A stretch of 64,000 nucleotides of DNA, taken from Isoetes taiwanensis. Taxonomy: Eukaryota; Streptophyta; Lycopodiopsida; Isoetales; Isoetaceae. The DNA is taken from contig JAJEKV010000036.1 of NCBI GenBank assembly GCA_021234155.1, positions 1,994,777 through 2,058,776 on the forward strand. Reading direction: 5' to 3'. The stretch's first letter is position 1. Each line of letters begins with the position of its first letter. Positions 14,806 through 64,000 of the stretch are shown here, in pieces. The notes under the pieces are model-generated. The model was not told the origin of the DNA. It was given only the letters and a program-made list of their open reading frames with translations, and ran no database searches. A program made the position numbers and the translations under genes.

Positions 14806-15051
14806 AGTGTACTTGTTTATTTCCATTTTCTACATATGCCTCAATTTTGGACAATAGAGGCAATACTATATGAGTGCAGAAATGCCTCAATTTTGTATAC
14901 TCAATGATATAAATGCTGGAAGATATGTGTTTGTGGCTATCCAATTGTTTGTCTTTGTTCTTTCAAACAGGTTTGGAGTCTCAAATTACAATGTATGATG
15001 TTTGTGAATGCTTACAATACCTTCATAATGTGAAGGTAGGTGGAAGACTAC

Positions 15052-18000: not shown

Positions 18001-18240
18001 GTTTCTTTTGAAAAAGTCTTTGAAGAACTCTCCCTTTGTCCAAATCCTCGAAGCGTTCCTCACAATATGATTAAAAAATCATCTAGCTCTTTTGAGAGTT
18101 CTTGCAATCTTCTTTGGTGAGCCATCCTCTTCTCTTCTTATCATTTGGTGGTTTGTTTTCCTTTTCCCTTTCTTTCATTCTCTTTCTCGATTCTCTTTTC
18201 TACCCTTGGACATATTTCTATGCGACAATGGGATGGCGAT
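15052..18240 (-). pseudogene. T1: putative RNase H-like transposase of E1
   Basis: Reading N to C on the - strand: a Lys/Glu-rich start; RNASRIWTKGEFFKDFF; SPYKKHVRKHLTENGEKIDH; AFKKEHPNIKMSQRSFE; a Cys-rich part (RETCCCQYHLHLE...CTCG; WHKHACLDAK); IDFAENYGFKIQQEAQSCHW; SILVHITYRR; a Glu/Lys tract from (CTT)n; KETHFYISDDKTHDTEYVQH; FWSDGCSTQFKSSRPFHF; WNFFASSHGKGEHDGAGAVI; then AHRTLSCFCNYC; and a C-terminal domain (DFYVLKCTEA; VTGHYYKQIDGGLTFELL) with stop at 15052. By recall, this architecture matches uncharacterised transposase-like proteins of fish, corals and some plants. The Asp of DFA, SDG and HDG are the candidate acidic triad (inference). Introns are present, and a shift precedes DFAENY. 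Confidence 0.8.
15365..15480 (-). other. Acidic linker in T1
   Basis: A Glu/Asp run (GEEEEEEDEDG) joins the Cys-rich module to the C-terminal GDNFAV...FYVLKC domain. The complementary + strand gives long Ser/His frames that are shadows. Confidence 0.7.
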
Positions 18241-18259
18241 TGGTCCCTTATATGATCAT

Positions 18260-20370
18260 CACAGGGTCCTTAATTACATTGCCTCCTTTGGTAGGTGATA
18301 TTCTTCAATTCACGGAGGAGGAAGTCAAAGAAGGATGCGGCATCTATCTAATGGCAAGTCTCCACGATCTTCAAGGTTTGCAAGCGAAATTGCTTAAATG
18401 GGGTCCGCTGTGCTTCCAATCATCACTACTCTTTTAAATCAAGCTTTGCAAAGGCTTGCCAGAAACTTGGGCTTTGTCGATGGAGTCGTACCAATTTACA
18501 AAGCGGTGATAAGCATGACCCTTCTAATTATCGCATGATCATGGTAAGTTCCATATTTTCAAAGCTCTTAGCCAGTCTTCTTGAAGCGATTGACATCATG
18601 GGCGAGAACATCTTGGTGTATGCGTCTTTGTAGGGACTGAGCGAGGCTTTTCGTCCATGCCATTCTACAATAGACCATATTTTCACATTGCGCATGCTTA
18701 TTGAACATAGTCGAAGTTTGAAACAAGACCTCTATATATGCTTTGTAGATTTTGCATACTGCTTTTGATACAGTACCACGCGAGCTTCTTTGGCAGCGCT
18801 TGCAGGCACTTGGGGTTCCACAAGATCTTCAAAATGCAGTTTATCGGCTCTATGAAAGGGTTTTTGCTAAATTTCCAGCATCAGGTACTCAAATCACTAG
18901 CAATATTGAGTTCTACCAGGTTGCCCTTTATCTCCCTACACTTTTGGCTTGTACATTGATCAATTGGAAGAATGGCTTGATAATCATGGCGGCGGAGGTC
19001 CACATTTTGTGCACTATATCATTAGGCAACTTATGTATGCCGATGATGTTTCACCGGCACATACAATTGCTAGTATCACGACAACATTTACATGCTCGGT
19101 TTACGTGAGAACAGTGTCGTGTTAATCTGCAAAGACCAAGCTTTTGGTAGTTCAATCTTCGTCACAATGTTCCCCTATGCACTATGATGGCCAGCGAAGT
19201 TGAAGTTGTAGATAGCTACAAGTATCTTGGTGTAGAATTACGTAGAACACACACTGCAGGAGACGATGTATTACCAAGCGGGTGGGCTGCTGGATGGAAG
19301 CACTCTATGCAATGCAAAACAATTGTTTTCGTACGAGAAATTCATGATTAGCCCGCGGAAAGCCCACTTGTTTTGAGGGCTTTGGTAGAGCACTTTTTCT
19401 TGTATGGTTACGAAGTGTGGGGGCACGCCATTAGTGCTAGTGCTTGGGAGGCTTGGGCGGGTGCAAAAGTCCTTTCTCACTACAGCCTTGGAGTTAAAAA
19501 GCGATTTGCCCTATGCTATTCTTTTACAAGAGCGAGGGTTTTGGCCTCTTCAACATTACGCCATGAGCGCCATCTCCACTATATATGCATAAGGTGCACC
19601 ACATGGGCGATGTTAGGTATCTGTTCTTGCACTTGCCATGGCTGAATCTCTTAAGCGTTTGAAGCGATGTTGGAAAGGCATTGCACTACATGGTTTTGCG
19701 TTGGTACATTACAACCCGAGCCTTTGCGATGCTTGCCGGTTCACGATCACGAGCTTTTGCAACAATATCTTAATGGTCGTTTTTCTCAAAGATATGGGGC
19801 CAGGTTACTTTGGCCCAAGTGGCTGGTCATTATCATGCACACATAAATCCCACTTTGGCACCGGGGCCCCAAACTTATTGCTTGCTTCATTGTCAGGAAC
19901 AAGCTTGTAGCTATTGCATCAATCGCCGAGGGGGTCCCACAGGTCTGGTTGAGGCAATTAGATGGGGCGGCGCAAGTGCGCGAGAAGCGAGACTATGTGC
20001 CTGTTGCCAGTTACAGGTTATTGAAGATGAAAGCCATACTCTTCTGAGTTGCCCTGCTTTTGAGATAGTCCGGAATCATTTTTCGACCTTAGCATTCCAT
20101 TCCACGCTTCCACAACTCTCGGGCACCATCGTGCATGACTTGGCATTATACATACTTGAGGGTTCTAGATAAGCGTCTGCAATTACTGAGCCCTCGGTTA
20201 GTCATTATCTAAGCTTGTCTAGTATCATCATTCTGCCGCAAAGTTTTCCCTTGAAAACCTTTGGCGGGGTTTTTTAATCCTAGTAGTAATGATTGTACTA
20301 GCCCATTGTATGGGTCCCATGACCTATTGGTCTTTTGCGTGGGCGTTAAAAACTATTCTATTCTATTTTT
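18260..20370 (+). mobile_element. LINE B (non-LTR retrotransposon) inside E1, decayed
   Basis: The + strand in shifting frames reads FTEEEVKEG, then NGKSPRSSRF (finger region of RT), DPSNYRMIMVSSIFSKLLA, STIDHIFTLRMLIEHS, FDTVPRELLWQRLQALGVPQ, the catalytic box RQLMYADDV at about 19027-19053, DSYKYLGVELRR, LYGYEVWGHA, FLTTALELKSDLPYAILLQE, and a C-terminal zinc-knuckle-like ARLCACCQLQVIEDESHTLL followed by SCPAF. It ends with a stop at 20170 and a short TTCTATTC-rich tail near 20354. This differs from LINE A, whose YADD is followed by TFLFL and which has a zf-RVT C-terminus. Many stops; not active. Confidence 0.78.
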
Positions 20371-20799
20371 CCTCGGCTTCAAATTCCGGATAAATTTGCC
20401 TATTGTGATCATCGATGCTTTGAATTGGCGTGGTAACATGATAGTTTAGAATTGGGTGGGATTTTGATTGGAATGGGAATTGGAATTGAGAATTGGCCGT
20501 GAGCTCTCGACCATGACAACGAGCTTGGGAAGAATGACAATCCAAGAAAGAAAACTTTCCTCGAGAATCCCGCCATCGAGGAGATCCGATCATCAGGATC
20601 CGCCAAACTTGACAATTGCTCTAGCAATTGCGAACACATCCATGTCATGGGATCCCCCTCACTCAGGAACATGCATACTATTTGGAGTAACAACCCCGAG
20701 GTGGGTTGAGAAAAAATTCATCGAGCATGCACCACCTAAAGCACCTAAAGCACTTTGTGGGAAGGTGCTTTTTGGAATATGAGAACCATATTTACACCC
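20371..20799. other. Right subterminal region of E1
   Basis: Non-coding in appearance, ending in AAAGCAC-like repeats and the right TIR. The + frame 20468-20782 is open but has no similarity I recognise and runs into the TIR. Confidence 0.5.
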
Positions 20800-28490: not shown

Positions 28491-30254
28491 GTGCCAGGTG
28501 GCAGCAGAAAGAAAAGAGCCAATGCCACCAAGAAGGGAAACAAAAGTACGAAATCCAAGGTAGCTGGTGGGACACAGCCTGAAGCTGCAGCACAAGTTGA
28601 GAAGAAGGGAAACAAAAGTAAGAAATCCAAGCAAAGCTGGTGGGACCTGGATGAAGCTGCAGCACAAGACGAGACCTCAAATGGCAAGGGAAAAAAAAAA
28701 GAAAGGACCAAAGCCGGTCCCTCGACATTGTCTTACAAGAGAACGACAGTGAAGGATTTCATTTCATATCTGTGTTCCACATTGAAGATATTCGTGCCAC
28801 ACAATTACAGGGCTAGATGGCAGGCCATGCAATTCAGGAGTTGCCTGGACAATATCCAAGATGGCACCATTGTTTACAGAATTGATTTTGTAGAGAATTA
28901 CAAGACATAAAAATACAAAGGGAGGTTCAAAGCCGGCATTGGCACAATGACCAGATAACAATTCTCATCCACATCACGTATAGGATGGACATCAGTTCTG
29001 GGATCAGAAAGCTATTGAAGGAAACCCATTTTTACTTGAGTGATGACAAGCTTCATGACACTCTTTTTGTACAAAGCTTGTCTTAGAAAGCACAATGCAT
29101 GGCTTGTATCAAATGGTGTCGATTTCTCCGGGCATATAGTTTTGGTCGATGGTTGTTCTAGCCAATTCAAATCTGCCCTACCATTCTATTTCCCTACAAA
29201 GATATCACCATGAGCTAGGAAAGGAAATAGTATGGAATTTCTTTGGACAGCCCATGGTAAGGGGAGAGCACGATGGGCAAGGGGCAGTCCTTAAAGGGGC
29301 ATTCACTAGAGAAGCGACTCAAGTATGATGGGGTGAGATTTAGGGGTGCTGCTGATGCATGTGGTCGCAACTCATTTGGAATGAAGGTACCAACAAAGGG
29401 GACATCAAAAAGGTATTATGCTTTCATCTGCATTGTATACATTTGAGTAGTCTTTGCCTGTATGCTTCTTTGTAATGTCTTTGAATAGTGCTTTCATCAC
29501 CTTTAAGTCGTTGTGCGTGAACCGGCCATCTTGTGATGAGTAGTGTTGTATTATCTTTGTCTGTGAGATGCAATACTTGTTGTTTCCTTACTTGCGTGTA
29601 TACCGGGTAATTGGAAAGGATGATGTTGATAGGACAGACCCGCTGGACTGTGCCAGGGTGGAAGGGACCAAGCAAATACACAGCATCCGGACATACTTGG
29701 CCAAATCAAGCACAAGGGTGGCTCATAGAGGTTTAAGTTGTTTCCGTGGTAACTGTTTGAAAGGAAACCGGTCATCTTGTGTGAACGCTATTGATTGAAG
29801 AATTGGAAATATGTTACACTAAAGCTAGATAAGTCTCTTGGTGAAGGTATCAAGACGAAATCGATGAGGCATTTTTGAAGGTGATGGAGAATGGCTATCC
29901 AGGAAGCGTGAGGAAGGTGATAACTTTCTTTGTTGTGGCCGGCAGGGAAATCGAGAATGCAGATTTTTTATGTGGTCAAATGTGTTAAGCCTGGGCATAT
30001 CCTTGATGAATTGTCAAGGATAGGCCGGGAATCCAACCTTCAATGTGGATGAACATGTGTTGGCTGGTTTGTACTATGTTGCCCAACCAGATGGTAGTTG
30101 GGAGCTACTTGAAGACAAAGGCCTGACTTTCCAGTACAGTCATCACGTATCAGCTATCAAGTTTGAGATGAATCAGATTCCTGGCACCAACAGATTTTCC
30201 CTTGAACAGGCTACTCACCAGATGATCCTTGACAGTCTGCCATATGAAGGTTGA
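28491..30254 (+). pseudogene. T2: second copy of the E-family transposase
   Basis: There is no ATG start; the frame follows a splice-acceptor-like tract. A Lys-rich N-terminal region (RKKRANATKKGNKSTKSK) leads to QAMQFRSCLDNIQDGTIVYR and IDFVENYK (DFAENY motif with V). Then, through several shifts: THFYLSDDKLHDTLFVQS, IVLVDGCSSQFKSALPFYF, a WNFF...GEHDGQGAVLKG box near 29240-29300, RTDPLDCARVEGTKQIHSIR, VAHRGLSCF, and a C-terminal domain (LAGLYYVAQPDGSWELLEDK; HVSAIKFEM) ending at 30254. The order and spacing match T1. The motif II Ser is Val (VDG). The N-terminal Cys-rich part is not visible. Multiple frameshifts, so inactive as read. Confidence 0.75.
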
Positions 30255-40189: not shown

Positions 40190-41054
40190 GGTTTATACAC
40201 ATATTCCAATGGAGTATCTTCACCGTGATATGTACCTATTATGTCTTTGTGTGCTATGTAGCCATAGGTCGTGTATCCCAAGGAATTGTATCCCGTGTGG
40301 GGAATTTAGAGAGTAAACCACGGGATGTTGAAGTCAAGGGAACGGAATAGGAGCTTACCAATATCCACAAAAGATTTGTAATGGAAGTTGTAAAGTTCAA
40401 TGAGGATATAAATCTTATTCTTCTCACTAGTAGGAATGACCAGAGGCGCATACTGATCCAGAGAGTAGGCCATGAAACCATGGAAAAGCATGTCCTTCAA
40501 CTGTTCTAGCCTATCTTCTAAATCTGAGGGGGGTTCAAGAAGTCCCAAAGCACTTAGGGGTGTAAATATGGTAATGCTACCCAAAAAGCACCATCCGGAC
40601 AAGTGCGCTTGAAGATATTTCTCTTCAACGACCTTATAGTTGTTACTTAAAAAACAATATATATGATGTAGGAAGGCAAGGAGCGATGATATAGATCTCG
40701 TGGAGGAGCGTACAAATTGTGGAGGTCAAGTTATGACACATTTTTTCTTAGTCATAGGTGCTTTAGGTGCTATGTGCTTTCGCGCTTTTTTGGGTAGCAT
40801 TACCATATTTACACCCTTAGAGTGAACCTTGCCTGACTCGAATTGATCTCCTCCAGTGGAGGGAGATGACGATTATAGCGATCGATAATGAAGTTGCTCA
40901 GCTGCCTTGCAAGCTCTGTGGTTGGACCGTGACGCCATCGATGCTCCCAAAAGTTGCAAAAAAAATCATCAAAAGTGCACGTATTTCTGCCGCATGCTTG
41001 CAGGTATTCCGGATCAGCCCAGCGAGGATGTTCTTGCAAAGTTACCATTTGCAA
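40190..41054 (-). pseudogene. D1: unrecognised gene interrupted by a MITE
   Basis: An ATG at 41054 opens VTLQEHPRWADPEYLQACGR, NTCTFDDFFCNFWEHRWRHG, PTTELARQLSNFIIDRYNRH and EEINSSQARFTL. The MITE at 40558-40816 follows. Beyond it the frame resumes SALGLLEPPSDLEDRLEQLK, DMLFHGFMAYSLDQYAPLVI and ELYNFHYKSFVDIGKLLFRS, to a stop near 40306. Without the MITE and one TTAG the frame is continuous through ARFTLSALGLLEPP, so the host exon was intact when hit. No known domain; charged and aromatic-rich, soluble-looking. It is paralogous to D2 about 1.5 kb downstream and lies in the block with family P2 palindromes. Confidence 0.6.
40558..40816. mobile_element. 259-bp MITE with E1-type terminal inverted repeats
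   Basis: The TIRs are 30 bp and perfect (40558-40587 and 40787-40816), beginning GGGTGTAAATATGG and continuing TAATGCTACCCAAAAA. Flanking TTAG at 40554-40557 and 40817-40820 is a 4-bp target duplication (a 3-bp TTA with one extra G is formally possible). The right end plus its subterminal part (GCGCGAAAGCAC, AAAGCACC) is nearly identical to the left end of E1 over about 60 bp. No coding capacity, so it is a deletion derivative mobilised by an E1-type transposase. Confidence 0.92.
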
Positions 41055-47125: not shown

Positions 47126-47935
47126 CCTAAAAAAAAAATGAATGACTGGGAATCCCATGGTGGACTTCTTACTTCACAATCACATGCTGCAAAGTTGGAC
47201 AATGCCAAGGCCTCTAAATAATTCTAAAATAGGCATGCAATACCTGATTAGAGCAGAATATAGAGAATGACTGTGCAAAATTAGGTAAGAAGTCTTTGCA
47301 TCTCCGTCTGCATACTACCTAGGCTAAAAATCAACAGGAATATGGGGCAATTTCGGAATGAACCATTACAAACATGTTATCGGCTAAGCGGACGGTGTAT
47401 GTCATTGTAGGTCTTGGAGGTCACCGGTTAAATGTCACCCGGTGTGTACCATTTTGGATGACCTAGAAATGTACAAGGGCTCAGAGCCTTGTCATGAGTT
47501 TTGTTGAGGATGCAAACACAAAATTCCCAAGCACCATAAAAGGCGCACCACAAGAGAATTACAAGTTCCCCACTCGGTCTAATTCTTTGCGGTCGTGTGG
47601 TCCGCTATATGTGTCTTTGTAAAGAAAGTTGTGGCTGCGAGTAATGCGAGACTTGGACATACTATCCCAATGCAAGGTGAGTTAAGTAAATTTGAAGGTA
47701 TTACTCATCCAATGTGAGGGCCCGATATGTTTGTCAAGGGGTGTACCAATTTCTAGTGGGGAATTTGTTGGACACGCATTAGAATGATGATTGATGTTGT
47801 GAAGCACGGTTGCTCTAGTAATGAAGTTTGAGATTGTGAGATCAATAGATCTTTACTTGTAATCACATGTTTGTATTATTGTAACCAAAGAGGTTATTCT
47901 TGTAACCTATTCTTTCATTGACACTCTAATGTACA
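47126..47935. other. No recognisable gene
   Basis: About 800 bp of mixed composition with no long frame and no motif. Confidence 0.4.
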
Positions 47936-48035
47936 TTGTTGTATACTATTGTATACAATAGACTTTCAACGACGAGCAACACTGGTGGAGTTCAAATCTC
48001 GGAAAAGAAATTGATGTATTCAAAGATTCATGACA

Positions 48036-48175
48036 ATGTGGTGATACATGTGGTGATAGATGTGGTGATGCAAATGGTGCATGTGGTGAATCATGTGGTA
48101 CATGTGGTGCATGTGGTGAATACTGTGGTGATGCAAATGGTACATGTGGTGAATCATGTGGTGACATGTGGCGGG
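48036..48175. repeat. GTGGTGA-type tandem repeats, family P3, left array
   Basis: Irregular 9-15 bp units such as CATGTGGTGAATCATGTGGT and GTGGTGATGCAAATGGT. The + frame through it encodes only Val/His/Met repeats. Related text at 49393-49460 and 51597-51660. Confidence 0.8.
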
Positions 48176-49390
48176 TGGCTCGGCTCCGAGGTGTTAAATC
48201 GTATGTATGCAAGCGTCCCTTTCCTCTTACGCCTCATTCCCAAAAATGGTATGCATGCAAACATCCCTTTTATTCCCAAAATTACTTTTCTTTGCTTCAT
48301 TCCGTCCATCTTCCTCTTCCCTCCGTCCATTTTGTCCTTCCGTCCATTTCGTTCATTCCGCCCATTTCTTGCATTGCGTCTATGGCCAGGTTCAAGACTA
48401 CGGTCTTGCTAGGAATACTATTAGGCCATTGTGCACGCTCGCCGTCGCCCAACCGCGGTCCGAATGGAGTGTCTTCACCGAGAGGCCACCGATTCTGATG
48501 GTGGCCAAGTTCACTCCACCCGAGGTGGAAAAGCTCATCATGGAGGCATTGTGTGGCCCTTCGAATAGGTGCTCGAGTGGGTCGATCGAGGTTACCCGGC
48601 GAGGGCGGCGCTAGAAATAAAGATGTATGCCATGGAGGGCGACCTCCATATAGAGTGAGGATGGCCCTTTGAAGATCAAACTGCTCGATACGATTAGTTT
48701 AGATTTGTTTGTTTAATCCACGGTTTCAAATGTTTTGCAATAGTCCTTGTGACTATTTTTGTAAAACTTTTTAGTTAATGACAGAAATCCTCTTCTCTAC
48801 AGCTGTGTTCAGTTTTAAATGTTCTCTTAGTTTCCTTTGTTCTTTTAGTTAAGCTGGCTGTTTCTATCCTTTTACGTACAGATATAAGAAACATTTTTTG
48901 GTATTTAGTTTGCAACTCAAGTTTTGGTATTTACTTTATGACTCAAGTTAATGATAGTTTTTGTCATTCATTATACAATGCAAAGTACAAAGCAAAAGTA
49001 TGCCTTTCTTTGAAATAGCATACCATTGAAACAAACATTAAAGCCAACAAGGAATTTCAAGGTCAGAATTTATGATCGCACACTAACAAAATATGGTAAC
49101 CAAAGAACAAATAGGAAAATATGAGGTGGGTGGCTCGGGTTCAAAAGAAATAGAGTTCAGAAGAAACTGAAAAGAAAAATACAGAATTCCCTGAAGCAAT
49201 AGTTAGTGGCCTTGCAAGAATCTTTGCACAAAGCGAGCTTCATGAATTTTGGCCTCATATCAATTCGGGGAACCTAATTTGGGATCCATATATTAACGTC
49301 ACCAAAATCAGTCAAGATCTTGTTTTCGAGAGCCATTCCATTTTCTGGCCGGGTCAAAAATAGTCAATGCCCCGAGCTGATTATGATGAA
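48176..49390. other. Mostly non-coding; one short frame
   Basis: A C/T-rich part (48220-48380) gives Ser/Pro/His frames. A short + frame MVAKFTPPEVEKLIMEALCG (from 48502) ends at 48612. The rest is AT-rich without features. Confidence 0.35.
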
Positions 49391-49392
49391 AA

Positions 49393-49460
49393 TGGCGTGG
49401 TGAAAAGCCGTGGTGAAAAATGTGGTGAAAACTTGTGGTGAAGGCGTGGTGATGCAAACA
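49393..49460. repeat. GTGGTGAAAA repeats, family P3, middle array
   Basis: Five units of GTGGTGAAAAxxx, the last GTGGTGATGCAAAC as in the left array. Confidence 0.75.
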
Positions 49461-49662
49461 TTGTTTTTATATCTCAAATAATAAAAATACATATGGAAAT
49501 CTACCATACCCGGTAGAATAGTTCATACTTCTTATGAAATGAAGTATGCAGAAAAATCAGGGAAAACTATAACCCTGAGCTTCTAGTATTATCAAAATGC
49601 ATTAGAGATATAATAATAAATTTTGTTTAAAGAGGTTAATGATGACATACGATTCTTGGGCC

Positions 49663-50353
49663 TCAATGGGATCCGCATTGTGAGATCCAGAACTCTTCTT
49701 CTTCAAGTATGTTCAAGATGAGATCAAGTTTTTCTGCTGAATAGTTGGTGAAATCCAGCAACACTAAAACATGAGCTTCTCGTTTCTGCTCCCACTTATG
49801 ATACAGATTCATAAAGTATTGTCTCAGGTTGTTGTGTCTCCATGCATCTGGCCCGTTGAGCACTTTTTTAATGGCTGAAGCATGGATCATTTCCTGCTTT
49901 AGTTGGATGAACATATCCTCTTGCTCACTCGGGGAGAGAGCTGCGAACTCATCATCAGAATCATACGCCACCCCCAGATCCCTGTCGGCTGCACCAGCTC
50001 TGTTAAGTCTCCTGACTGCATCTGTGTAAAACAACATCATTAGTAATATAGAAATCACATTCTACTACAAAGAAAGGCAAGGCAGCGTATCACGCCTTGG
50101 CTTCTAATTCTTTAAGCCTATCAGGAATTAACCTATGTTTTAAGCCTAGAATACCTCGGAATTCATGGATCCTCCGCTCCTCTAATATCCGCCTCTGTTC
50201 CTGGTTTATTTGCTCCAGTATAGGTTCTACCAGATGCGACTGCATTTGAACTGGCGAAATTGTTTGTGCTCGTGTTCTCCTTCGTCTTCTTCGCCATTTG
50301 GATTGGGATAAGCCAATGTCGCATGCAAAACTAGATTTAGGGTTTCGGCCCAA
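49663..50353 (-). CDS. Two-exon hypothetical gene, about 210 aa
   Basis: An ATG at 50353 starts MGRNPKSSFACDIGLSQSKW, then an Arg block (RRRRRRTRAQ), then a helical part (EPILEQINQEQRRILEERRI; DRLKELEAKA). A GT-AG intron of about 85 bp (donor GC^GTGATA, acceptor CAGTCAG) keeps the frame into RLNRAGAADRDLGVAYDSDD, EFAALSPSEQEDMFIQLKQE, PDAWRHNNLRQYFMNLYHKW, and ends VLVLLDFTNYSAEKLDLILN with an acidic tail. Probably nuclear and basic-acidic, with no known family. No internal stops, unlike its neighbours. It is flanked by family P3 arrays on both sides. The splice choice is inferred. Confidence 0.5.
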
Positions 50354-50599
50354 TGCTTCACCTTACGACCCGACTTTTGAATGATTGACCTTGCATTTGA
50401 TGTATGATTTCCAATGGTGGGTTTCATCATGTGTTTCTCTGTCCCATTCGCATTTCATCCTTAATGTAATTTTTTCGTGTGTCACTTTTTACCTCGTCTA
50501 TTAAATAGTGAAGATTGAAGAGTGAAGATTTATATTAAACATATAAAATGATTATATAAGGTTACATTTCAGATTATAAGCGAGGACAAGTATTAAACA

Positions 50600-51550
50600 T
50601 TTCAGATTACATGAGAAACAAAACTTTTTATATACACTTGCATTCATTCGTGCTTCTATCAAAAAGAGATCACGGGTCCAGCTCCTCCTCGTCCTCTTCT
50701 ATGATCACCCGATCGGTGGCCCGCCGGTCAGCTTACCCGACCTATTTCATCCCATTACGGAGGGAAAGCAAAAACCATAATGGTGCGGTGTTACCAAAAG
50801 CGGAATAGCGGCTTCTCCATGTGCATCCCGCTTGGCCTTGTGATGATAGAACATATCCACGAAGTGAAGGAATTGGTCCTCGTAAACAACCTATCATAAC
50901 AAAAGCGAGAAACGTCTAGCGTAAAGGCTTGGTAGCCATTAAGCGTAAAAGGTTTCAACCTTTTGAGATCACGGTCAATAGTATGAGGAAGAGGCCAAAG
51001 ATCTTGGTGTGTAAAATTTCGATGGGCGCAGAGTAAGTTGAGAGGTGCGGGAGGTTAGGTATACAATTCATCCTCCCGGTGAGAGCTTTCCGGCATTTAC
51101 GTGGTCATATTCTCATCCGGTGAATAGAGAAATTTCTATTGCTTGAGGATGTCCATCCATTCCGCATGGGTGAAAATCGGACAAGACGCCTAGGTATTAT
51201 GGCTCTTCTTCTCTGGTCACATTGTCCCATTCAGGCACTCCATCGTTTTGTAGCATCCAAGAGGTGAAGTTGGCCATGTTTCTTGGGTAGGCTGGCTTGT
51301 AAATCAGAAAGCGTAAATCGCTTCCCAAGTACACACCATCAGAACCGTGAAATTTGCTCCCAAGCTCTTTGTAATAAAGCGTAAACTTCGATTAGGGAGC
51401 AAGAAGAATGGCACCCTCGGGCCTTTTGGGTTGCAGAGGTCATTAATTTCGCCATCCCATAATGATTTTCGAATGCAATTTGTCGCCCAAAGGATGATGA
51501 GGGAATTGATGGGACCGAGAGAATTTAAGGAAAAGGAAAGCAAAAGTGGA
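50600..51550 (-). pseudogene. Unrecognised - strand coding remnant
   Basis: Frames read LIILWATNCIRKSLWDGEIN, DLCNPKGPRVPFFLLPNRSL and FITKSLGANFTVLMVCTWEA; after a shift KPAYPRNMANFTSWMLQNDG and VPEWDNVTREE; then YEDQFLHFVDMFYHHKAKRD. Stops intervene. The style (short aromatic, charged) recalls D1/D2 but I cannot align it. Confidence 0.33.
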
Positions 51551-51596
51551 AAAGTTGAGGAGAGGATCTATCGTCTGGGGGAAGAGACAGAAAGTG

Positions 51597-51660
51597 AAAC
51601 ACGTGGTGAAACATGTGGTGAAACATATGTGGTGACACATGTGGTGAACCTGGCGCATGT
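51597..51660. repeat. GTGGTGAAACAT repeats, family P3, right array
   Basis: Five units of the family. Two direct copies of ACATCAAAATACAATT follow at about 51671 and 51728. Confidence 0.75.
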
Positions 51661-51920
51661 TACATCAGTGACATCAAAATACAATTACATATTACATCAA
51701 AAGCAAATATATTACATTGAAACAAGGGACATCAAAATACAATTGAGCATGGAATTGAGTTTCTTATATTATTCCTAAACAAGGCAAGACACAACAACAT
51801 ATATTCAAAATTTCTGAATCATTTCCTAACCTGTAAGAATGTGTTCAACTATTCTTCATCAGACATGCTATCTTCATCAGATAAAACCTCGGGCAAGTTT
51901 TCTAGAATCTTTTTTTCTCA

Positions 51921-52348
51921 TCACTGGTCTAGCACATGTAACTTGATTCGAGCACCTTTCTTGGGAACTAGAATAGCACAAATTTGAGTAGAGAATACAA
52001 GTGACTTTGGCTCGTTTATGCACAACTCATACATCAACTTTGACTGAGGCTTCTTTCTATAGTAAATGCCCTCCACAACGGTTTCACCTCTCATAAACAA
52101 GTTTCCATTCTGCTTGAAGTCATTTTCAACTTCAAATTTTGGCTTGGTGCATAGCAACATCCAAAATACAGAATCCTCCTCATTCCCTTTAGGTGCGACA
52201 AGCGCAAAGTTGTCTCCTTCTCTAAGTGCTTCTGCAAGTACATTTGCCAAGGTTGAATATAGTGGCCTGGTAGACTTGCGGGTCTCTTCCACATCTGCAT
52301 GAACATTGGAGGATGGTTCAACGACTACAAGGTTCCATTCATCTACAT
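51921..52348 (-). pseudogene. T4: C-terminal half of a transposase gene, cut by E3
   Basis: The - strand frame from the E3 junction reads VDEWNLVVVEPSSNVHADVE, ALREGDNFALVAPKGNEEDS, FWMLLCTKPKFEVENDF, ETVVEGIYYRKKPQSKLMYE and SLVFSTQICAILVPKKGARI, ending at 51921. It aligns with the T1 C-terminal domain (GDNFAV; FYVLKCTEA; VIVTGHYYKQ; FELLQDMPVASVYS). Its upstream part lies at 61866-62111 beyond E3. Removing E3 and one ACAT joins them in frame (WDMCENKLYVDEWNL). The family P3 array and the 51.7 kb direct repeats would be the 3' flank of this older element (E4). Confidence 0.82.
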
Positions 52349-52369
52349 GGGTAAAAGCATGAAAGGGTG

Positions 52370-52445
52370 TACGTACATCGTACTGAATTGAAGGGCAATT
52401 TGTGCTTTTTGGGGGTACATTTTAGATGTACATCAAGATACTATG
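52370..52445. repeat. ATGTAC repeats, family P4, at the left end of E3
   Basis: GTACGTACAT followed by TACATTTTAGATGTACATC just inside the left TIR; the first cluster of this family. Confidence 0.6.
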
Positions 52446-52658
52446 GTTTGTCGTTTTGTGTCGGATATGCAATGATTGCAAGATCATCCCGACATTCCCC
52501 GAAAATTCTTGGTTAACCCTTAGAACCACCAGAACCAATTGAATGGATCCGTCCCCTCCTTTCGAAATTCCCCTTTCACGGGGCCGAACAGAAGGAATTC
52601 GGAAGCAAACACATGCCAATTGAATCTACAAGAAATACAAATCAATTTCAATCTATTC

Positions 52659-55590
52659 ATGGAGGGTGAGAATTCCAATGGAAGTGATGGTTCTAAGCGC
52701 AAGTATGCCGACATTGGCCGATGTTATGCCACAAAACAAATAAAGCGTGTTGGCAGTTGGGTGGATTGCATCCTCGATTCAACGGCAAGCGCCCGTCAGA
52801 TCAAAGATTAGTTTTTGTGATCGTTTCTTTGCAAGATGACAGTTTTTTTACGTTTTCGAACTGTAATTGGAAATCCTTCGAAGTTATTGTTATGAAATCA
52901 ATGATCGAAACTTGAAAGATGGACTTCAAGAAGTAAAAGTCTGCTAATAGCAAAGATAAATTGGCTGCAAAACATTCATCGTTTATCAATGATTGTTGGA
53001 AAAAAAGGAGATATAAACAAGAATGTTTCTTCAAAATTGCTAAAGATCTGACCAAGAAATTTATCCAAAGCTGCGGCAAGAAGGAAGATAATGTCATTAA
53101 ATTGGAGCAAATGTATGGGCTTTGGCGGGAAGGATGCCAAGATCAAATAGAATCGATGATTCAATCAAATGTCGAGGTTAAATGGAATTTTGGCTTGACA
53201 ATACCAAAAGTTTCACCAAAGGTTAGAGATGTCATGAAGAGGAGAACACAAGCAATACAATACCTTGATATCTCCGCGGGTTTGCTCTTGTAATTGAATC
53301 AATTCAGTCTTGGAGTTTATGTTTTCTTCCAAAATTCTTTCATGACTTTATTACGTACATTCTAGTTACATTCGAAAGTGACACGTTAATGAATACACAT
53401 GGTTCTCATGAAATGTATTGCATTTTACATTGTTTACATAGTAGCAGAAATCTTTGCAGTTGATGTGCTATTAGGTACTTTTTAGATGTACATCCATTAA
53501 CAGATTACATGTCCATGCAATTTGCATTTACATGTACTTGAATATCAAAATTACATCATTCTACATTTTAGTGTACTTTCGGGTAATGAAGCCAAACAAA
53601 TCGGACATATGTACATTAGTTGTACTAATATTGTAACATTAATGTGATGTACTAATATTGGAACATTAATTAGATGTACATTGGATGTACATTGATGTAC
53701 ATTGGATGTTGATGGAACTGTTGGTACGTACATTAGATGTCTTACAGTACATTAGATGTACATTAGATGTCGATAAGAGTCGGTGGAACTGTTGGATGGA
53801 CATTTTATGTACATAGAACATACATTAATTGTACAATAGTATAGTTCAATACTCTTTTGGCATCCGTTGCCGACATCATTTTGCTAACATGGTCTTTAAT
53901 GCTTTTGTTATTGCGCACCGAGCTTTATCAACGGTTTGTATATCGTAATCCACGATGCAAAAATTAGCCGACCGGCGGTTCGAGTATCCGAAACCTGATT
54001 GCATAAGGAAAATTGAAGGAGAGAAACACATGTTGTTGTGTCAAACATGAGCAAGCGATCCTGCATGCGAAAGGCCTTCAACGATATGAGGAGATCCCTA
54101 CATGTTAATTGCACTTGCTTGTACAGTAGTGTCCGTGCATCGGCAAAACAATGGAGTATGTCAAGCAAACAAGAAAACTTTTGATAATGTTAGTATCTTG
54201 TGGAGGTCAGCGGTTTTGCGAGAAATATGTGACGGATGAATGGCATAAACTAAAATGCATCAAAGGCGAATGTGATGAATGTGGAGTGAAGAAATTAGAC
54301 ATCCTGTCCAAACGAGGAAGATGGAATTAATGTGGATGGCAAGTATATGCATATGTCAATGAGCCATCCAAAAAGGTACATCCGAAGGCTTAGATTAGTT
54401 GATCGAATGACAAAGCATCTGTTTTGTTAAAGAACATGAAAAATCAGCTTGCTAAGTTTCTGAGATCATAACTTTACAAAGACACCTTTGGCGAGCAAGC
54501 AGTTTAAAAGATGTGTTGAGAAACTCCGGATAATAGTGTGTTGTCTATTGTTGACTTTGCTTGAGAGAACTACACATTGAAACCGAAGGGGGACGGAAGT
54601 GCAATCCGAGCATTGGAATCTGATCAAATTAGTATTTTGGTCCATATTTCAATGATGAAAATAGAAGGTAAGCTTAAAAAAACAAAGTGCATTTCTATGT
54701 TTCCAGGATGACAGGAAGCATGACACTCATTTTGTGCAACATGGTTTTAAATTACATTTGGGGTGGCTTAAGAATAATGGAGGTGGACACATAAACCTTC
54801 ATTATGTGTGGTCGGATGGTTGTGCATTTCAATTCAAATCACGCGTGCATGGTATGGAATCAGAGATACCATGTTGAAAATAAAATTCGAAAGTGATATG
54901 GAATTTCTTTGGATCCGGCCATGGGAAAGGCACACATGATGGCGAGGCTGGTATAGCAAAGTTGTGGCTTGAGAGCGAGCGAGAGAAAACAAAAATGGCA
55001 TGCCGGTGGCAGTCGTGAAAGCTTGGCTTGTGCGGTTTTAAGGGCCAAGGAATCGGATTGTGAAAGGGTGTTTTGGGAGGTTGGAAAACAGATGTGAACA
55101 GCAAAGAAGCATTCAATTGCAAGACTTTACACGGTACTCGTGCAGATACATTCGTAGGTCAACTATAAACCCAGCCAGATCCAACAAAGTTGCTATGCAC
55201 GGTTCACTCTGCTTTTGTGATGCTTGCATTAACTTCAATTGGTTGAATTGTGAGAACATTAAACATTGTGGAGAATGGTCTCTAAAAGTTTGGAGCCCAC
55301 AGATCATATTGCCTCTCGTGTTGAAGCCGAAAATGATGTGGATGTTTTGTATGCAGAGGACTAGGCTGGTTTAGATGACACTTTGTAGGCAATTTCGGAT
55401 GTATTTGTGTCTTTTTGCAACACACCAGACAATGTGGAAGGTGTTTCATACTATGTTCTCATGTGCACCAGGGAAAACCATGCATTGGAAGAAGATTCAA
55501 TTGATGACTATGGAAATGAATACTCACTTTGGCACTAGTGTCATTGAAGGACAATATTATGAACTAATCGGGCTGCCACAATAAGTATAA
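52659..55590 (+). pseudogene. T3: transposase of E3
   Basis: It starts MEGENSNGSDGSKRKYADIG. In order, over frameshifts: QECFFKIAKDLTKKFIQSCG, EQMYGLWREGCQDQIESMIQ, MRRSLHVNCTCLYSS (Cys motif), LKCIKGECDECGVKKLDIL, FGEQAV, TPDNSVLSIVDFA then ENYTLKPKG (54525-54590), VQSEHWN, ISILVHIS, DDRKHDTHFVQHGFKLHLGW, YVWSDGCAFQFKSR (54806-54845), WNFFGSGHGKGTHDGEAGI (54897-54955), NPARSNKVAMHGSLCFCDAC, GEWSLKVW, VEGVSYYVLMCTREN. The same motif order as T1 and T2, with the acidic residues of DFA, SDG and HDG all present. Several single-base shifts; inactive as read, or the sequence has indel errors. Confidence 0.8.
53460..53840. repeat. ATGTACATT repeats, family P4, inside E3
   Basis: More than ten ATGTACATT/TTAGATGTAC units between two T3 coding parts, with no coding sequence, so probably intronic. 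Confidence 0.8.
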
Positions 55591-55603
55591 ACCGCTTCCT
55601 ACT

Positions 55604-55925
55604 AAGAATGTTTTGGTACCGAGAAATGCGTGATTGGGGTTCGAATCCCATTCAAGAAAGTAAAAACACAAATTTGAAGGGGCAAGCACAGCATTTCACT
55701 TGCCGATGAAGTCCATGAGACATTGTTATCACAACTTCCAAAGAATTGTAGATGACATGGACTAAGTCGGATCCGTAGTACTTTCCCGAAATATTGTAAT
55801 ACTTTGTTATAAGAATCAAGAACTGGACTACTTGAAGTGCATTATGTACATCAATGTACATAAGATGTACAACAGATGTATATCTTATGTACATCTTATG
55901 TACATCATTTGTACATTCCGAAATA
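55604..55925. repeat. ATGTAC repeats at the T3/F3 convergent junction
   Basis: A cluster at 55845-55920 (ATCAATGTACATAAGATGTA and TCTTATGTACATC). A T-arm-like GGGGTTCGAATCCCAT occurs at 55635-55650, but no tRNA cloverleaf surrounds it. Confidence 0.65.
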
Positions 55926-56671
55926 TTATAAAAATTTGTTAAGTGTAAGTTGATTAGAATTGAACACAAGAAAGTTGAATTGCATAAACACTAAAATGGT
56001 TTCGGTCATGGCAAAGATAAGAAATGGATGTGTTTTCATGTACAAATGGTTGATATATTTATATTGTGGACATAAATATAACACACCCAAAAATGAGCAT
56101 GGCTCATAATTCATGACCAAGCTTCAAAATGTCAAGAGGAGCCCTGATATCTTATGACTATTGCATCATGTCTTCCAGCCGCTAGAGAGGTCAAGAGATA
56201 TCCTCTAAAGCAGTAGTCCATGCGGTTTCTATAGCACGCCACACGGCAAACCTTTCCATCCTACATAGCTCGTGATCTTCCAGACACGTGCCTTCCCCAA
56301 GGGTTGTGCAACAAGTGATTTTTTGCCAATGTACCTTTCATGGTTGCTCGTTCCTCATAATTTTCAATTTGCTCAACCTTTTCCCAAAGTTCGAGAACAG
56401 TAAAGATAGAGGCGATAATCGGTCCCCAACCCTATGTACTTGCAGCTTGTGTTGGTTTGTATTACCTCCGGGTGCAGTGAGAACTCTATCTCTTAGTTTC
56501 TTAATAGTCTTTTGTGTTTCAAATCCATTCATCTACAAAGCAAATGAAGATCACTTAATTATGTATACACACTCATAATTGTACCAATAAGAAAGACAAA
56601 GAAGAATAGAGTACTCAAGTGCAATGAACAAAAACTTTGATACATATATTCATAACATTTGAATTTGTACA

Positions 56672-59600
56672 TCAGTCAAAGTCTGTACCAACAATGGGCC
56701 AGTCGAGAGGCCAATAACATGATGGCAGTTTCTCCATTCCTTGCTCCGTATATTGACTAAATTTAGGCAGCAGAGCACCCAAGTTGTTGCCATAGTTTGC
56801 CAGCAAAATCTGTTCCACCTGCTCTGATATGCCATCTGCTGCATTAGTCATTGGATGCTCTTTCACATAAACTATACCATCTTCAGCCATTTTGAATCCA
56901 TTAAGCCATGGAATGAGCTCCATGACAAGCAATCTGTCGCCAGCTAATATCGGTGTCCAAGAGAAAGGACATATGTAGCTTCATATAGGATTCAAAGTGG
57001 ATTTGTATCTTCGTCGTCGACGATCTGTATGTCCATAGTACTCTGGGTACTCTTTCCATACCACGACTAATGGTTTCACAAACAACCCCTTTTGAGGTTC
57101 AAGAGGGTGTTTGTGTGGTAGTCCAACACTTGCCCCCGGTCAGAAACAAACTTCAGCTTTATGGAAAAAAGCATCACAAATATGTTCCACAATTGGTTGA
57201 AGATTTTTAGAAGTGAGTGAAGACCAGATGGCAACATCAAACCCTTCTCTTACAAATGCTAACAAATGATGCTAACCCCGGCCCGCATTAAAAAAACACA
57301 TTTCCTATATTAAATTGAAGCTCATCTTTCCGGATCATTTGGTATCTTGAGTTAATATTTTCATTCTTGTGCACACTCTTGCCCAACCACGTAATTTAAG
57401 TCAAAGATAACGAGCTTTCTCCTCGAATTAGATGATTCATGTCAGCAAGAAAACACTTGAGATTCACAATTTATAATTACATTTCGGACACACAATTGAG
57501 AAAACACATTGATAATTACACGATTGTTATTTGCACAGTGTAAGTGAGACAAATAAATTAATTTTTCATTACTTATTGAGTACAAAGAAGCTCTGAGCAT
57601 GGCTCATACAAAACTGTAATTTACAAACAAGTCAAAGGGACTATCTACCCTGTGTAGGAACAATCGCTTGTATATTCATCTCGCCTTCTACAATTAATGC
57701 CTCCATTAGATGATCCCTCCGTGACTTGGCATAGGCATCGATGAACCAATGGGTGTCATCTCGCATGGTGCACAAGTATTAGAGGACTATACCAACAAAT
57801 AACTAATAGGAAAATAACATGTTCTACTTACAAAAATGGAGCTTGGCTGTGCATCAACCCAAAGATCTATGAATTTGTGCATGTAAGCCGCAATGTACAT
57901 GCAAGGGTTGCCGGTACTAGTTTCGGCATTTTAGGACGTAACATGTGAGCATCAAAGTTCTTCCTACCATGGTTTAAGCTGTTGGATCCGAGCATCATGT
58001 TATTGATCACAAGCTTATGAAACCCGCAAAATTGCAATGTGAGAATAAATCAAGCATAAGAAATTGCAATATGAGAATAATCAAATCATAAAAACAAAAC
58101 AGTAAAAAACTCTTACTTATACGGACCACTTTAGCATCGGTACATAGCCTTTGACGAGAGAGAGGATCTGTATACTTGGGCTAGCTATAGATGGAAAAGA
58201 GCTTTTCATTGGACCAGCAAGCACAAGTATTGCCAATGCCACATTTGGGCCTTGCGTAACAAGGGGATTCACCGTAAAGTGCCATACAATGTGCCCGAGT
58301 GACTTGTAGGGGGTTTTTTTGACCCATTTCCATAATACGTAAGAGGTAGGGGGTTTTTGCCACTACTTGGGGGTAAACTTTGTGCGGAAGGGGTCTAATT
58401 TGCCTTTCAAGAAATCGTGATCTGTGGGGGTTTTTTGATCACCCTATGCACGCACATGGCATACCCCCTTACTATAAATGAACCCCGGGTTCTGCGTAAT
58501 TGGAACAAATATGTATTGGCATCTTGCAATCAAAATGCCATCCAGCCCTTCCTTTATGTTAGTGTTCATTGCATCTCCCGTTCTTGAGGGAATTCACAAA
58601 AATTGCGGAAGGTGTCCGGTCGAACCGTAGAAAAACTTGTGTTTCCAATCAGATGGAAGATCGCTACAAAGGTACACGCACACAAATCCAGATTACATAT
58701 TAATACATAAGATGAGTGACTTAGGGAATGAAATAACATAAATATGTTGAAATGCTAGCCTACCTCCCATAGACATCTACCATCTTAGAGGTCAAGTCCG
58801 ACTTCCCGTGAGAACTCGTCAACATCACTTTGAAAGATAGAGGGTGCGGGCTTAGGAGGACAGTCCCTATAAGGAGTGAATGGAACCAACCTTTTCAATC
58901 AGGGTTCACTAAAACTGCATACAAGGAAACAACAAAGATTAGCAAAAGAATATATCTATTGTAATCAATTGTATATTACTCACCTTGTAAATTCATCATT
59001 GTTTAAAAAGATCTTCTCGAGGACTGCTGCACCTTTATTTGTTATCACATCAATATTTGCTTGTAGATCCTCTTCCTCTTCCGGGTTCGACTCGGAAAGG
59101 ATCGGGGATCGCCTTCCTTCACGGCCCCGTGATCGTGTCCTATGTACAAAAAAAATGTGGTTAATTACCATAAACCGAGATGTTTAACAAAATTAGTTCA
59201 TCTTGGACATACCTCTTTCTAGGTGGTGGTGGCACTTTTTTGCTGGAGATTTTCTTTTAGGAGGACATTTTTTGTTCTTGGGAGATTTTTGCTGCTTTTT
59301 TCCTTTTGGAGTGCCATCACCAGCATTCTTTTGCCTCCTCTTTGAGTGGACTCAACTACCAACTCAGCTTCCTCCCCGGTATCTCCCGGGTTAAAAATCG
59401 GATCCGGTCCTTTGTAGCTTCTTACATGTAACAGTCGGGCTGGGACCGCAGATGATCTTTGAGACGAAGTTTAATCTTTCTTAGCTTCTCCAATTACTAA
59501 TTTAGCACTTGGTGATGAAAGATTTTCTACATTCGCGGCTGATCATTGAAGGCTCGCGACCGCAGACCGCTTTAGCTTTCTCAAGTGCCATCCTCTCAAT

Positions 59601-61617
59601 TTCCTCAACTTCACTTTGCCATGTTGAGAAAGGTGCAAGGTGCATTGTTCTATTAGGCGGGCAATCGTAAAAATGTCATTGGTGATCCGGAGCTGGAAGG
59701 TAGAGGGTCTCTGATTCGGTCCCCGCTTATTATGCTCAATAAAATCAGAAGAGAGTCGATGCGGATGGCTCAAGAACATCAGCCATTAAAGTCGCTCCGG
59801 GATAGAACAAACCTCATCTGCAAACAAACAAATGATCTAAATTTCAATAGACATAAAAGAACATGAAAAATGTAACTAATGAGAAATATCGGTACATTAC
59901 GCCAAGCATGTACATTTCATGTACATAGAATGTACCAAATGTAAGTAACTACATTTAACTATAGCCAAATGTACATGTACATGTTCCTCAATGTACATAA
60001 AGGTACATCAATGTACCCGGATGTACAATCGATGTACCCGGATGTACCTGTGTATCCAGCTAGGGAATGTAGATCTATGCCAAAAAAAAAAGCACATATA
60101 TATGTAAAAATGCACATACTTATGAATCCATCTACGATGCACTCTAAAGATAAATGCATGTACATCTATTTGCAGATGTAGACTCCATTAGAGACATGTA
60201 CAACCGATACAACTGCAAATTCAAGCTCAAAAATAAAAGCATTAATAAACAAGCAAATATATGCCTATGTACCTCGCTACGGATGTATACTAAAAGTTAT
60301 ACATGTACAAGGAATAGCAATGCATCGAAAAGCCATACATGTAGAACTATGCGATTACAATAACAAATATGAATGAAGAGAAATATAAGTTTAAATTAGT
60401 TGAGAGCAATGCATACCTTTCACAATGTGGAAACCAAGCTGAATTGAATGCCCTCATCCCGGATGCAACCTTTTATGCATTGCTCTTTCATGGACGAGAT
60501 AACACAAAGGAAGAGGCAATAAGCATCTCTCGCATGGAGCTAGCAACAACAAACCAGTTTTGCCAAAGCCTTGGCCAACAGTACATGAACCTGAATGTGA
60601 TGAATCGCTTTATAGAAGTAGCTCCTGGGGGTAGGGCCTGGTGCGAGAACAATAGGTCCCGCTCCTCCCATGAAATCCAAAATCTGCGGAATGCCTTTGC
60701 TGAACCAATTCAATGCAATTAAGTTTTTCCTTTGCTTGTTCAATTGAGATTTCATGCCTTTCAATTTCTTTTTAGTTGCTTCCCTCGCAAACCAATGTCT
60801 AGCTTAGAAGAGTGTCGCTCTTTATCATGTCTACTCATAACCAAGTCTTCCAACTTGTACTTCAACACTCAAGATAACTTGATTTCCGCCAGGATCCCGG
60901 GACAATTTGTCAAATTCTTGTTTTGTCTCATCTATTTTCTCGGCAGATTCGCTGCGCAGATCTTGGATAGCATATCCTTTCTACCCTCAATCCTACTGAT
61001 GACCTTCAATGCATCCCTCCTTTCTTCCAAAGGTTTCTACTTCATTCAATAGGTTAGTTTTCTCCTCCAAACTCCATGCTTAAGTGAATCGCTATTGTGT
61101 CAACATCCGGCCCAGAATAACCTGTGGCTCTAATATTCTCACTGCAATGATGTCCCGCTTTGATAGTTGAGGATTTACCTCGCTGTGTGGTCCTCTCAGA
61201 ATTCTAAAATGAGGGTTTTGGTAAAGATCTTTGGCTACCCCAGCCACGCCCATCCAATCAACAAGCCGGCCCCTTCCAAGTGAAGAGCAAATGCCTCGCA
61301 AAATAGGTTGAAATATAATGGTTTGTAACCGCTTCTTGCCATATAAACCAATTCATAATATTTAAAAATCATCTTCCATGCCTCCGGATTCTCCCTTCCT
61401 TGAATCCTCGCCTGCTTTTTGAGCCTCACCCCATACCTCGCTCATAACCATCTCTAGGTTGGGTATGTGGGCCTCGTGATGTTTCACTTTTATGTCTTTG
61501 CTTCATCACCTCGTAACCCAAACGTAAACTCATTGAGGTAAAATTCCACCGCCGGCACTGCATCTTGTTACTGGTGGGACAGCAAGCACTCATCCGTATT
61601 TTGGGCCATAGGGGCTA
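56672..61617 (-). pseudogene. F3: E3 gene ending in an FCP1/NIF-like phosphatase
   Basis: The start is likely MAQNTDECLLSHQ near 61610. Parts in order on the - strand: NPEAWKMIFKYYELVYMARS; a coiled-coil-like KPLEERRDALKVISRIEGRK (about 61040); a basic region (KGKKQQKSPKNKKCPPKRKS, about 59260); acidic SPILSESNPEEEEDLQ (about 59080), also found in F2; a Cys cluster CMALYGESPCYARPKCGIGN (58270-58200); exons NPCMYIAAYMHKFIDLWVD and THWFIDAYAKSRRDHLMEAL. Then the HAD phosphatase: KLVIFDLNYVVG (57417-57382), GFDVAIWSSLTSKNLQPIVE, KPLVVVWKEYPEYYGHTDRR, IPWLNGFKMAEDGIVYVKEH, and a stop at 56672. The DLN motif matches F1. A RING is not clearly visible here. Introns and several frame changes. Confidence 0.65.
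59885..60310. repeat. ATGTAC repeats, family P4, inside F3
   Basis: Clusters of ATGTACAT, GGATGTACC and TACATGTAC at 59890-60065, with weaker units to 60310. They lie between F3 coding parts, so probably intronic. Confidence 0.8.
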
Positions 61618-61865
61618 GATGAAGAATCGTGGATCTAATTCAAGGTAGAAGGTATGATAGTGAACGAGGCAAACCAAGAAAGAATTTGGGAAAGAATTTC
61701 AAAATCCGAGCACCAAGTGGGTTCGGGGAGTAGTGGATAGCCATTAATCATGGCAGCTTACTAGTCGTCATGATGATAAAGCATATTCCAAAATGTGTAT
61801 TCTGGTGACATATGTATATGTACAAAAAGGGCTACACTTATAGACACCCTTTCATGCTTTTACCC

Positions 61866-62111
61866 ACATACAATTTGTTCTCACACATGTCCCATTTTCC
61901 ATCCAAACAATTGTCGCGAAAAACATGATAGCTTTCTGTATGTGTAGTTGTGTTGATTTCCTCGTGTCAATCCATGGACTGAATGAATTTGCCCTCGGTT
62001 TCGAATTGTCTCAAGACCCTTAAGCCTTTTGTTAGCTCCCTGGTGGCCCGCGCATACCAATGTGTCTATACTGGCCGTGATGAGGGCGAGAAGCCCCACC
62101 GCCACGTCCAA
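61866..62111 (-). pseudogene. T4: upstream part beyond E3
   Basis: The - strand reads IHSVHGLTRGNQHNYTYRKL and SCF, then over a shift DNCLDGKWDMCENKLYV up to the E3 border. It aligns with T1 TTKLHCIRPCDKEN, AHRTLSCFCNYC and KWDKC. Further upstream (62.1-62.3 kb) similarity fades, and the DFAENY and HGKG motifs of T4 are not found, so T4 was already truncated or diverges. Confidence 0.72.
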
Positions 62112-62199
62112 GAAGAGGGATCCACAAGGATGCCACGCTGGTCAAAGCTCCTCCAAGAAGTGTATGACCCAAAGGTAGGGACTACTACGCCACTACTGT

Positions 62200-64000
62200 C
62201 ATAGGCACGCTTACGTGCCTCGGGACCTCTGCTCGAAAGTGCCCAAGTAGTGGAGCACGCGCTGTTAGATGAGGATCGATTCAGTCTGGCTACCTCATGT
62301 TCCTATATATTGTAAAGCATTTTTGCTCCTTCAAAAAAGGGTTCGTGAGTGTTCTTTGTGTCACTACAGAGCTGCATATGCCGTCGTCACAGCTTCTTTT
62401 GAGCCTTCATTGCATAATTTGTTTTGATCAATGGATTGCCGTGGTTCTCCACAAGTGTCTGTGTGTTTCATTGTGTATTGCAATTGCCGCTTTATCTCGA
62501 AGTTTTTCAAGGTTTCTTTCCTCCCTAGCAAAAATCCCGCCGCGACAAGAGTGTCTGTGATTTGCCCCTCACGGACTTCAAGATCCTCACAGAGACCACC
62601 CCCTCAGCGATCCCGCCCTGACCCCAAACACCTCGCTGTCGCGGCTCACTTCCTGGAAAGTTTTATTGATACCATGCTCAATCCCTTTACCCCGACGCAT
62701 ATTCAACACCAGATGAGCCAAGACGCTGCCGCCATGAACCGGCGCTGACGCCTCCCCGGGCCACTGGAGCAAGTCCACATACACTGTCTCGGATTGTCTC
62801 TTCTCCGGTAATGAGCCGCACCGCTCCACCTACACCACGCATTAACTTTCCGCATCACCTCCCCGCGGGAAGGTCGCCATTGTTCCGCTCCCCTGCTCGC
62901 CACATCATGCGTAGGCCGCAACACTTTGAATTTACCTCCACCGTGGAATCCCCAACTCAAGATCCTACGCACTTCACCGCGAATTTCTCCTCTCGAACAT
63001 CCGCAAAATGTTTTCTCTATTGGTAATCTTTCTTAGGAACTTCTGCATTCACCGCTCTTACCTTTGTCAATTCCCCTACCGCTCTGCTCCTTAATCGCTC
63101 CCCACACTGCTCATGCCTCAGCCACAACCTTGCCCTACTCATAACCGCTTTCAGACTTTTTACTAATCTCACAACCTATGCCAGCCTTTGACCTACGAAA
63201 CTTCAACACCTACCGCCTTTTCTTTCCACAAATGCAAACACCCATTCATACCGACTTACACATGCTTTAAAAACCCACATCCACCTTTTGAAATGATAAA
63301 GGTAAACACATAGACCTCGTAGTGCTCAGCTCACATGGATGAATTCTGAGTCACTTGGTGTGACCCCAATGGTCACCCGGATCCAAAAACTAAATTCCAC
63401 ATCTTTTCGACGACTCGCTGCGGAGCACCCACGCACGGTCGATGGCAAACAAAAGCCACTGAAACAAGATTGATACACATGAAGACCTCTTTTCCCATTA
63501 CAAGACTTTAAGGATGATCAACAACCGAATCCACCTCAACACACTCAAGCGTAACTCCGTGAGAATCGCCTCTCGAGACTCTCGCATCGATCACAGATCT
63601 TAGTCAACAAGTTGGCTGAATTTCCAACCCAAAGCCAAATTTAGTGTGGTTTCTTCAAGGCTTACCCTCTCACATCCCATTTACACCGAGTATTCATACT
63701 TCAAGACATTACAAGCAAGAAGCCATTGAATTAGCTTCAATCACTGCTCATGTTTCTCACGCCAAGGATCAAGCCACTATACTCCCCATTTCCCCACACC
63801 CACGCCAAGCACCCTCGGGACGCTTCCACTATAGCTCTACCTAATAACATTTAAAATATTTCGCCAAGATTCGTGACATCCGGGCTAATGAGTGTAACTC
63901 GCGGATAGCATGATCCATTGCAAACGCCGCAACATGCGCAACCACACCAATCACAAATGTACAAATCCACTCCACCAACCAGATCACACGCCTGCTCACC
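62200..64000. other. C-rich region without recognised genes
   Basis: The composition changes to C-rich on the + strand. Open pieces on both strands (62431-62748 +, 62703-62972 -, 63644-63844 +) share no motif I recognise. It may be the non-coding or gag-like part of a retroelement extending beyond the window. Confidence 0.35.

Follow-up and report, generated by a model that had tools for sequence, protein, structure and literature searches.

A nested Sola-like DNA transposon of Isoetes taiwanensis and its FCP1/NIF-like second gene

The subject of this article is a DNA transposon, here called E3, that lies in a stretch of 64,000 nucleotides from the lycopod Isoetes taiwanensis (assembly GCA_021234155.1, contig JAJEKV010000036.1; G000:C1041:1994777-2058776 in our numbering), and by 'the window' we mean the whole of that stretch. 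E3 is a complete copy of 9517 bp at 52349..61865, bounded by two 22-bp terminal inverted repeats (TIRs), the left at 52349..52370 (+) and the right at 61844..61865 (-). Both read GGGTAAAAGCATGAAAGGGTGT, giving the ends GGGT...ACCC, and they are complementary throughout, just as the original prediction had it. A pattern search of the window with up to three mismatches places this sequence twice, at the two ends of E3, and not once in 100 shuffles. The ACAT that had been noticed on either side is also there, at 52345..52348 and 61866..61869, and it is present singly in all 30 empty sites that were fetched from the genome.

E3 sits in T4, the transposase gene of a host element, E4 (47347..52348, -), which is homologous to a T4-family copy at 89% by sequence comparison. 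The portion of T4 on the 5' side of E3 (61866..62030, -) was placed by alignment to T4 relatives, and the C-terminal portion on the 3' side (51948..52348, -) by a tblastn match to a T4-family copy (E 1.7e-77, 81% identity); on the minus strand the two flanks run on, one into the other, as a transposase C-terminal region. Empty copies of T4 elsewhere in the assembly had been named as the thing to look for, and they exist. With the T4 flanks joined, E3 removed and one ACAT kept, we searched the whole genome (1,658,258,908 bases in 1110 contigs), and the best 40 of 617 first-look candidates, which were the ones scored, are all 91-93% identical to the query. Every one of the 30 relatives fetched aligns across the join, where ATGT occurs once, and is free of gaps within 30 bases of it, and it is because all of them cross the junction in this way that we take E3 to be an insertion with a 4-bp duplication. 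On these comparisons E3 has landed in a transposase gene that belongs to a related element, and the earlier suggestion that one member had jumped into a relative is thereby supported: the E3 and T4 transposases are about 50% identical over 107 catalytic-core residues, and are related proteins of different families.

Some details of the original prediction fared less well. Taking out E3 and one ACAT does give the join WDMCENKLYVDEWNL that was claimed; the restored frame discriminates poorly, however, because T4 already bears a stop and a frame change a short way upstream, damage that is separate from E3; when compared with the family profile, joins that drop two, four or five bases come out at 105.1, 106.4 and 106.3 bits, which is not decisive. 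T4 had been drawn as far as 62111, whereas its similarity stops at 62030, and it is not a gene broken by E3 alone, since a second block of ~6.6 kb splits it again. This block fills 62031..64000 and continues for about 4.6 kb outside the window; the 5' half of T4 follows at 68638-71493 in extended coordinates. A longer duplication at the second block, suspected by eye, came to matches of only 5-6 bp when sought by script, and a TIR candidate in the T4-family copy, with 4 mismatches in 16, was judged unconvincing.

The family to which E3 belongs is very abundant. Genome-wide, its TIR pattern has 3133 forward and 3157 reverse matches at up to three mismatches, while the reversed pattern, used as a control, has 6 and 10. 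From facing TIRs among 100 of the matches listed, pairs were chosen by eye, giving 26 in all: E3 of the window, 13 further long copies (9131-9751 bp), ten short copies (252-265 bp) and two pairs, fetched as ends only, with 13.6 and 20.6 kb between their TIRs. An exact 4-bp duplication flanks 24 of the 26, where chance would give a match in about 0.005 per pair, and these genomic copies, together with the empty sites, back the exact borders and duplication length first proposed. The duplications are diverse (TGCC, ATCA, AAAG, GTCT, AACC and TGGC are examples), and there is therefore no strong target motif. The 14 long copies are 87.9-94.9% identical to one another and depart by 3.9-7.8% from their majority sequence, with numerous small gaps.

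The transposase gene of E3 survives as a remnant at 53914..55520 (+), recognised in several frames by tblastn with 33 homologues. Three aspartates, D171, D256 and D297, are invariant across the 33 rows of the alignment, and the third, which is Asp in every row, is probably catalytic, judging from the structure model. That model and a second-look fold comparison give the RNase H-like fold, and the relation to integrases and transposases comes from the second look; the protein is of a widespread family with an Asp-Asp-Asp (DDD) triad. Pfam returned nothing above cut-off for the transposase pieces, and scans of viral contigs and GTDB contigs with A1 found no relative. Uncharacterised proteins of fishes and insects (P0100, P0103 and P0120) share the catalytic core and its HGKG..DG motif, but at 26-35% identity.

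In addition to the transposase, E3 carries a second gene, convergent to the first, with a segment at 56864..57304 (-) that we call FCP1/NIF-like. It was found by tblastn to the corresponding segments of a sibling copy (E 4.5e-55) and of the T4 family (7.6e-12), and in the E3-family copy L012 the segment matches the profile PF03031 at 4e-08 and 33.5 bits, above the curated cut-off of 21.8 bits. All 14 long E3-family copies hold a match to the L012 segment, located 3' of the transposase gene and on the minus strand, and the independent T4-family segment finds the second gene in 11 of these 14. The same convergent position is taken in E1, a related element in the window, where the segment (14034..14385, +; PF03031 profile and tblastn) is decayed and gives weak direct matches to the other second-gene segments (0.003-0.022). 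Two E1-type copies elsewhere, L109 (7.4 kb) and L110 (6.9 kb), match PF03031 far more strongly, at 7.4e-22 and 3.2e-21, within open frames that run for 377 and 292 residues, part of the longer one looking as if derived from another insert; E1-type copies reach 76.1 and 78.2 bits with the profile. A T4-family copy (L066/L062/L067) matches at 4.7e-13 and 49.6 bits. Given that the transposase cores of these three families are 39-50% identical, we read E3, E1 and T4, from their sequences, as a conserved two-gene transposon lineage.

PF03031 is very numerous in this genome, with at least 151 matches (the best 150 of 3261 first-look candidates were scored), and clusters are seen on C1018, C1060, C1078 and C1084 among the matches listed. 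At least six matches lie inside facing TIR pairs (on C1051, C935, C1025, C1007, C1027 and C889), out of at least 19 listed pairs of 3-21 kb by hand count, where the chance expectation is about 0.02 (hand arithmetic). Four of the pairs were checked for a 4-bp duplication, which is present on C1051, C1025 and C1007 and absent on C1027.

FCP1-type phosphatases have the catalytic motif DxDxT/V, which holds the nucleophile. The corresponding residues read DLNG in the E1-type copies, DLNY in E3, YYNG in the T4-family copy and DYNG in P0121, and it is because the motif differs that we use the name FCP1/NIF-like and claim no activity. Cucurbit PF03031 proteins read DVNG, and the second gene is thus similar to plant proteins in which Asn takes the second place of the motif. 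One of these, Cucurbita maxima LOC111495745 (P0125), shares the PF03031 domain, a D-x-N-G motif I and the WSS and DD motifs, and differs in being a host protein with another N-terminus and 28-29% identity to the second protein. Against PDB sequences the domain finds UBLCP1 at 2.7e-05 and FCP1 at 0.011-0.014. A single-sequence structure prediction for the L110 domain reached a predicted local distance difference test score (pLDDT) of 48.4, too low for use. To the eye, coiled-coil and RING-like stretches precede the FCP1/NIF-like domain of the E1-type protein, an impression from the letters, and RING matches there stayed below cut-off (E 0.015-0.16). A literature search on FCP1 or NLI interacting factor together with DNA transposons found no such transposon protein among the papers listed, which is weak evidence of absence, and no paper combining Sola, transposase and Isoetes was found either.

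E1 itself, of which L109 and L110 are sibling copies, spans 11669..20799, with 18-bp TIRs (GGGTGTAAATATGGTTCT) that begin GGGTGT; its transposase gene, T1, lies at 15085..17478 (-; tblastn with homologues). Just upstream, a paralogue of the E1 flank (8711..10883, +), identified by repeat comparison, lacks E1 and so provides an empty site inside the window, near 9222. A non-autonomous element of 259 bp with E1-like TIRs, found by TIR search, lies at 40558..40816 between copies of TTAG. Among pairs fetched from the genome, a 4-bp duplication accompanies the E1-type TIR in nine of ten and a GGTAAT-variant TIR in ten of 12. T2 (28653..30251, +; tblastn with homologues) is a third transposase remnant in the window, and a TIR candidate for it, with 3 mismatches in 14, was judged unconvincing. 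E1 is here about 2.2 kb longer than two sibling copies, and about 18200-20357 resembles a reverse transcriptase by eye. Elsewhere in the window there are a 696-bp stretch at 46244-46939 that looks like a hAT element, its 17-bp inverted ends starting with CAGGG and its duplication being 8 bp long; an open frame of 177 residues at 38030-38560 (+) that matches the core histone profile (PF00125, 4.6e-18) after an unusual N-terminus; and densely clustered, long imperfect inverted repeats at 25825-28066 that look fold-back-like.

Taking the borders, the duplication, the empty sites, the invariant aspartates and the convergent second gene as they stand in the DNA, we think, with a probability of roughly 0.9, that E3 is a copy from an abundant cut-and-paste family, put into E4 at T4 by its transposase, and on this reading it would also be Sola-like in kind and its second protein may be a working part of it. 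Several observations weigh against this. The window copy has no open stretch of 130 codons or more, and the longest among the 14 long copies is at most 273 codons; the broken frames may in part be uncorrected read error in repeats, in part introns and in part decay. The 4-bp duplication is missing from two of the 26 E3-family pairs, one of the ten E1-type pairs and two of the 12 GGTAAT-variant pairs, E1 in the window is flanked by GTT (3 bp, or GTTT with one T lost), and in 15.1 kb of the T4-family copy a search for TIR pairs sharing 11 exact bases and flanked by a 4-bp duplication found none. Foldseek gave no match below 1e-3 for the transposase model, the pieces of the window E3 reach only 0.016 and 15.3 bits with PF03031, below the cut-off, and no second gene was found near T2. 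To these can be added two points on the name Sola, to which we return: the comparison with Sola is one of descriptions, and the duplications are not rich in A and T. That the junctions might be an assembly artefact, joining E3 to two pieces of T4, has in its favour the abundance of T4 relatives and an assembly built from nanopore reads, with racon and pilon polishing according to PMC8566536; perfect TIRs and an exact 4-bp duplication are unexpected from a chimera, though, and with the flanks meeting exactly, base for base, in every relative fetched we consider the idea highly improbable.

The superfamily and the second gene leave more room for argument. As characterised in PMC10741241, Sola elements have a DDD transposase, a 4-bp target site duplication and TIRs of 11-1124 bp, are mostly 2-9 kb long and are present in the moss Physcomitrella. 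E3 agrees in its duplication and its DDD transposase, and would belong in or near this superfamily, to which it is matched by descriptions rather than sequences; it departs from described Sola in its FCP1/NIF-like gene and in duplications that vary, unlike the AT-rich ones reported for amoebozoan Sola2 (PMC3627910). With Sola compared by description and the duplications as they are, we keep to the label 'Sola-like'. Sola1-1_Ec32 of Ectocarpus, a Sola-1 element, likewise has an accessory gene, transcribed opposite to its transposase, but it measures 21.5 kb and the product of that gene bears ParB-like and DNA methyltransferase domains and no PF03031 (PMC12477816). Ginger, whose definition in PMC10741241 asks for TIRs of 40-270 bp with 5'-TG...CA-3' at the ends, was set aside on the GGGT...ACCC ends and 22-bp TIRs of E3. 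Some other superfamily, whether unnamed or described, such as Academ (which has a RecQ helicase; PMC3627910), would sit comfortably with a transposase lacking a Pfam match above cut-off, with duplications that are not AT-rich and with an E1 duplication readable as 3 bp, but since the 4-bp duplication, the DDD triad and the occurrence in moss are all stated for Sola, and a Sola-1 element has its own opposite-strand gene, we find it rather unlikely. A closer contest, in which we would give the alternative not far short of an even chance, concerns the FCP1/NIF-like gene, which could be a host-derived passenger with no role in the element: its closest named relatives are the cucurbit proteins, the host genome is full of PF03031 matches, the second Asp of DxD is Asn (the T4-family copy lacks the first Asp too), and T2 has no such neighbour. 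Against a passenger stand the convergent location shared by three families with transposases as divergent as these, and two E1-type copies in which the domain still lies in uninterrupted frames, 292 and 377 residues long.

If E3 is the Sola-like cut-and-paste element that we take it to be, its transposase would have joined it to a 4-bp staggered cut in T4, and repair of the gaps after joining would have duplicated ACAT. The second protein, as a putative working part of the element, would perhaps act on proteins of host transcription or silencing, and our guess is a helper directed at host proteins in their phosphorylated form, such as the tail of polymerase II or silencing factors. More tentatively still, and with odds somewhat below those we allow the passenger, one lineage of DNA transposons in a seed-free plant may have kept this convergent gene since before the families split, its protein linking coiled-coil and RING-like stretches to an FCP1-type domain (one like the RNA polymerase II CTD phosphatase) and serving to counter silencing or as a helper that the element cannot do without.

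A nested insertion is in itself ordinary, and the interest here lies in the clean definition of the family and in its FCP1/NIF-like second gene. For a very abundant family of I. taiwanensis we now have the exact ends, the length of the duplication, short non-autonomous partners and a set of empty sites, so that it can be annotated and dated, and the transposase represents a group that spans algae to fishes and insects and yet has no Pfam model. Beyond this, the conserved second gene hints that a plant DNA transposon may be able to influence transcription or silencing in its host.
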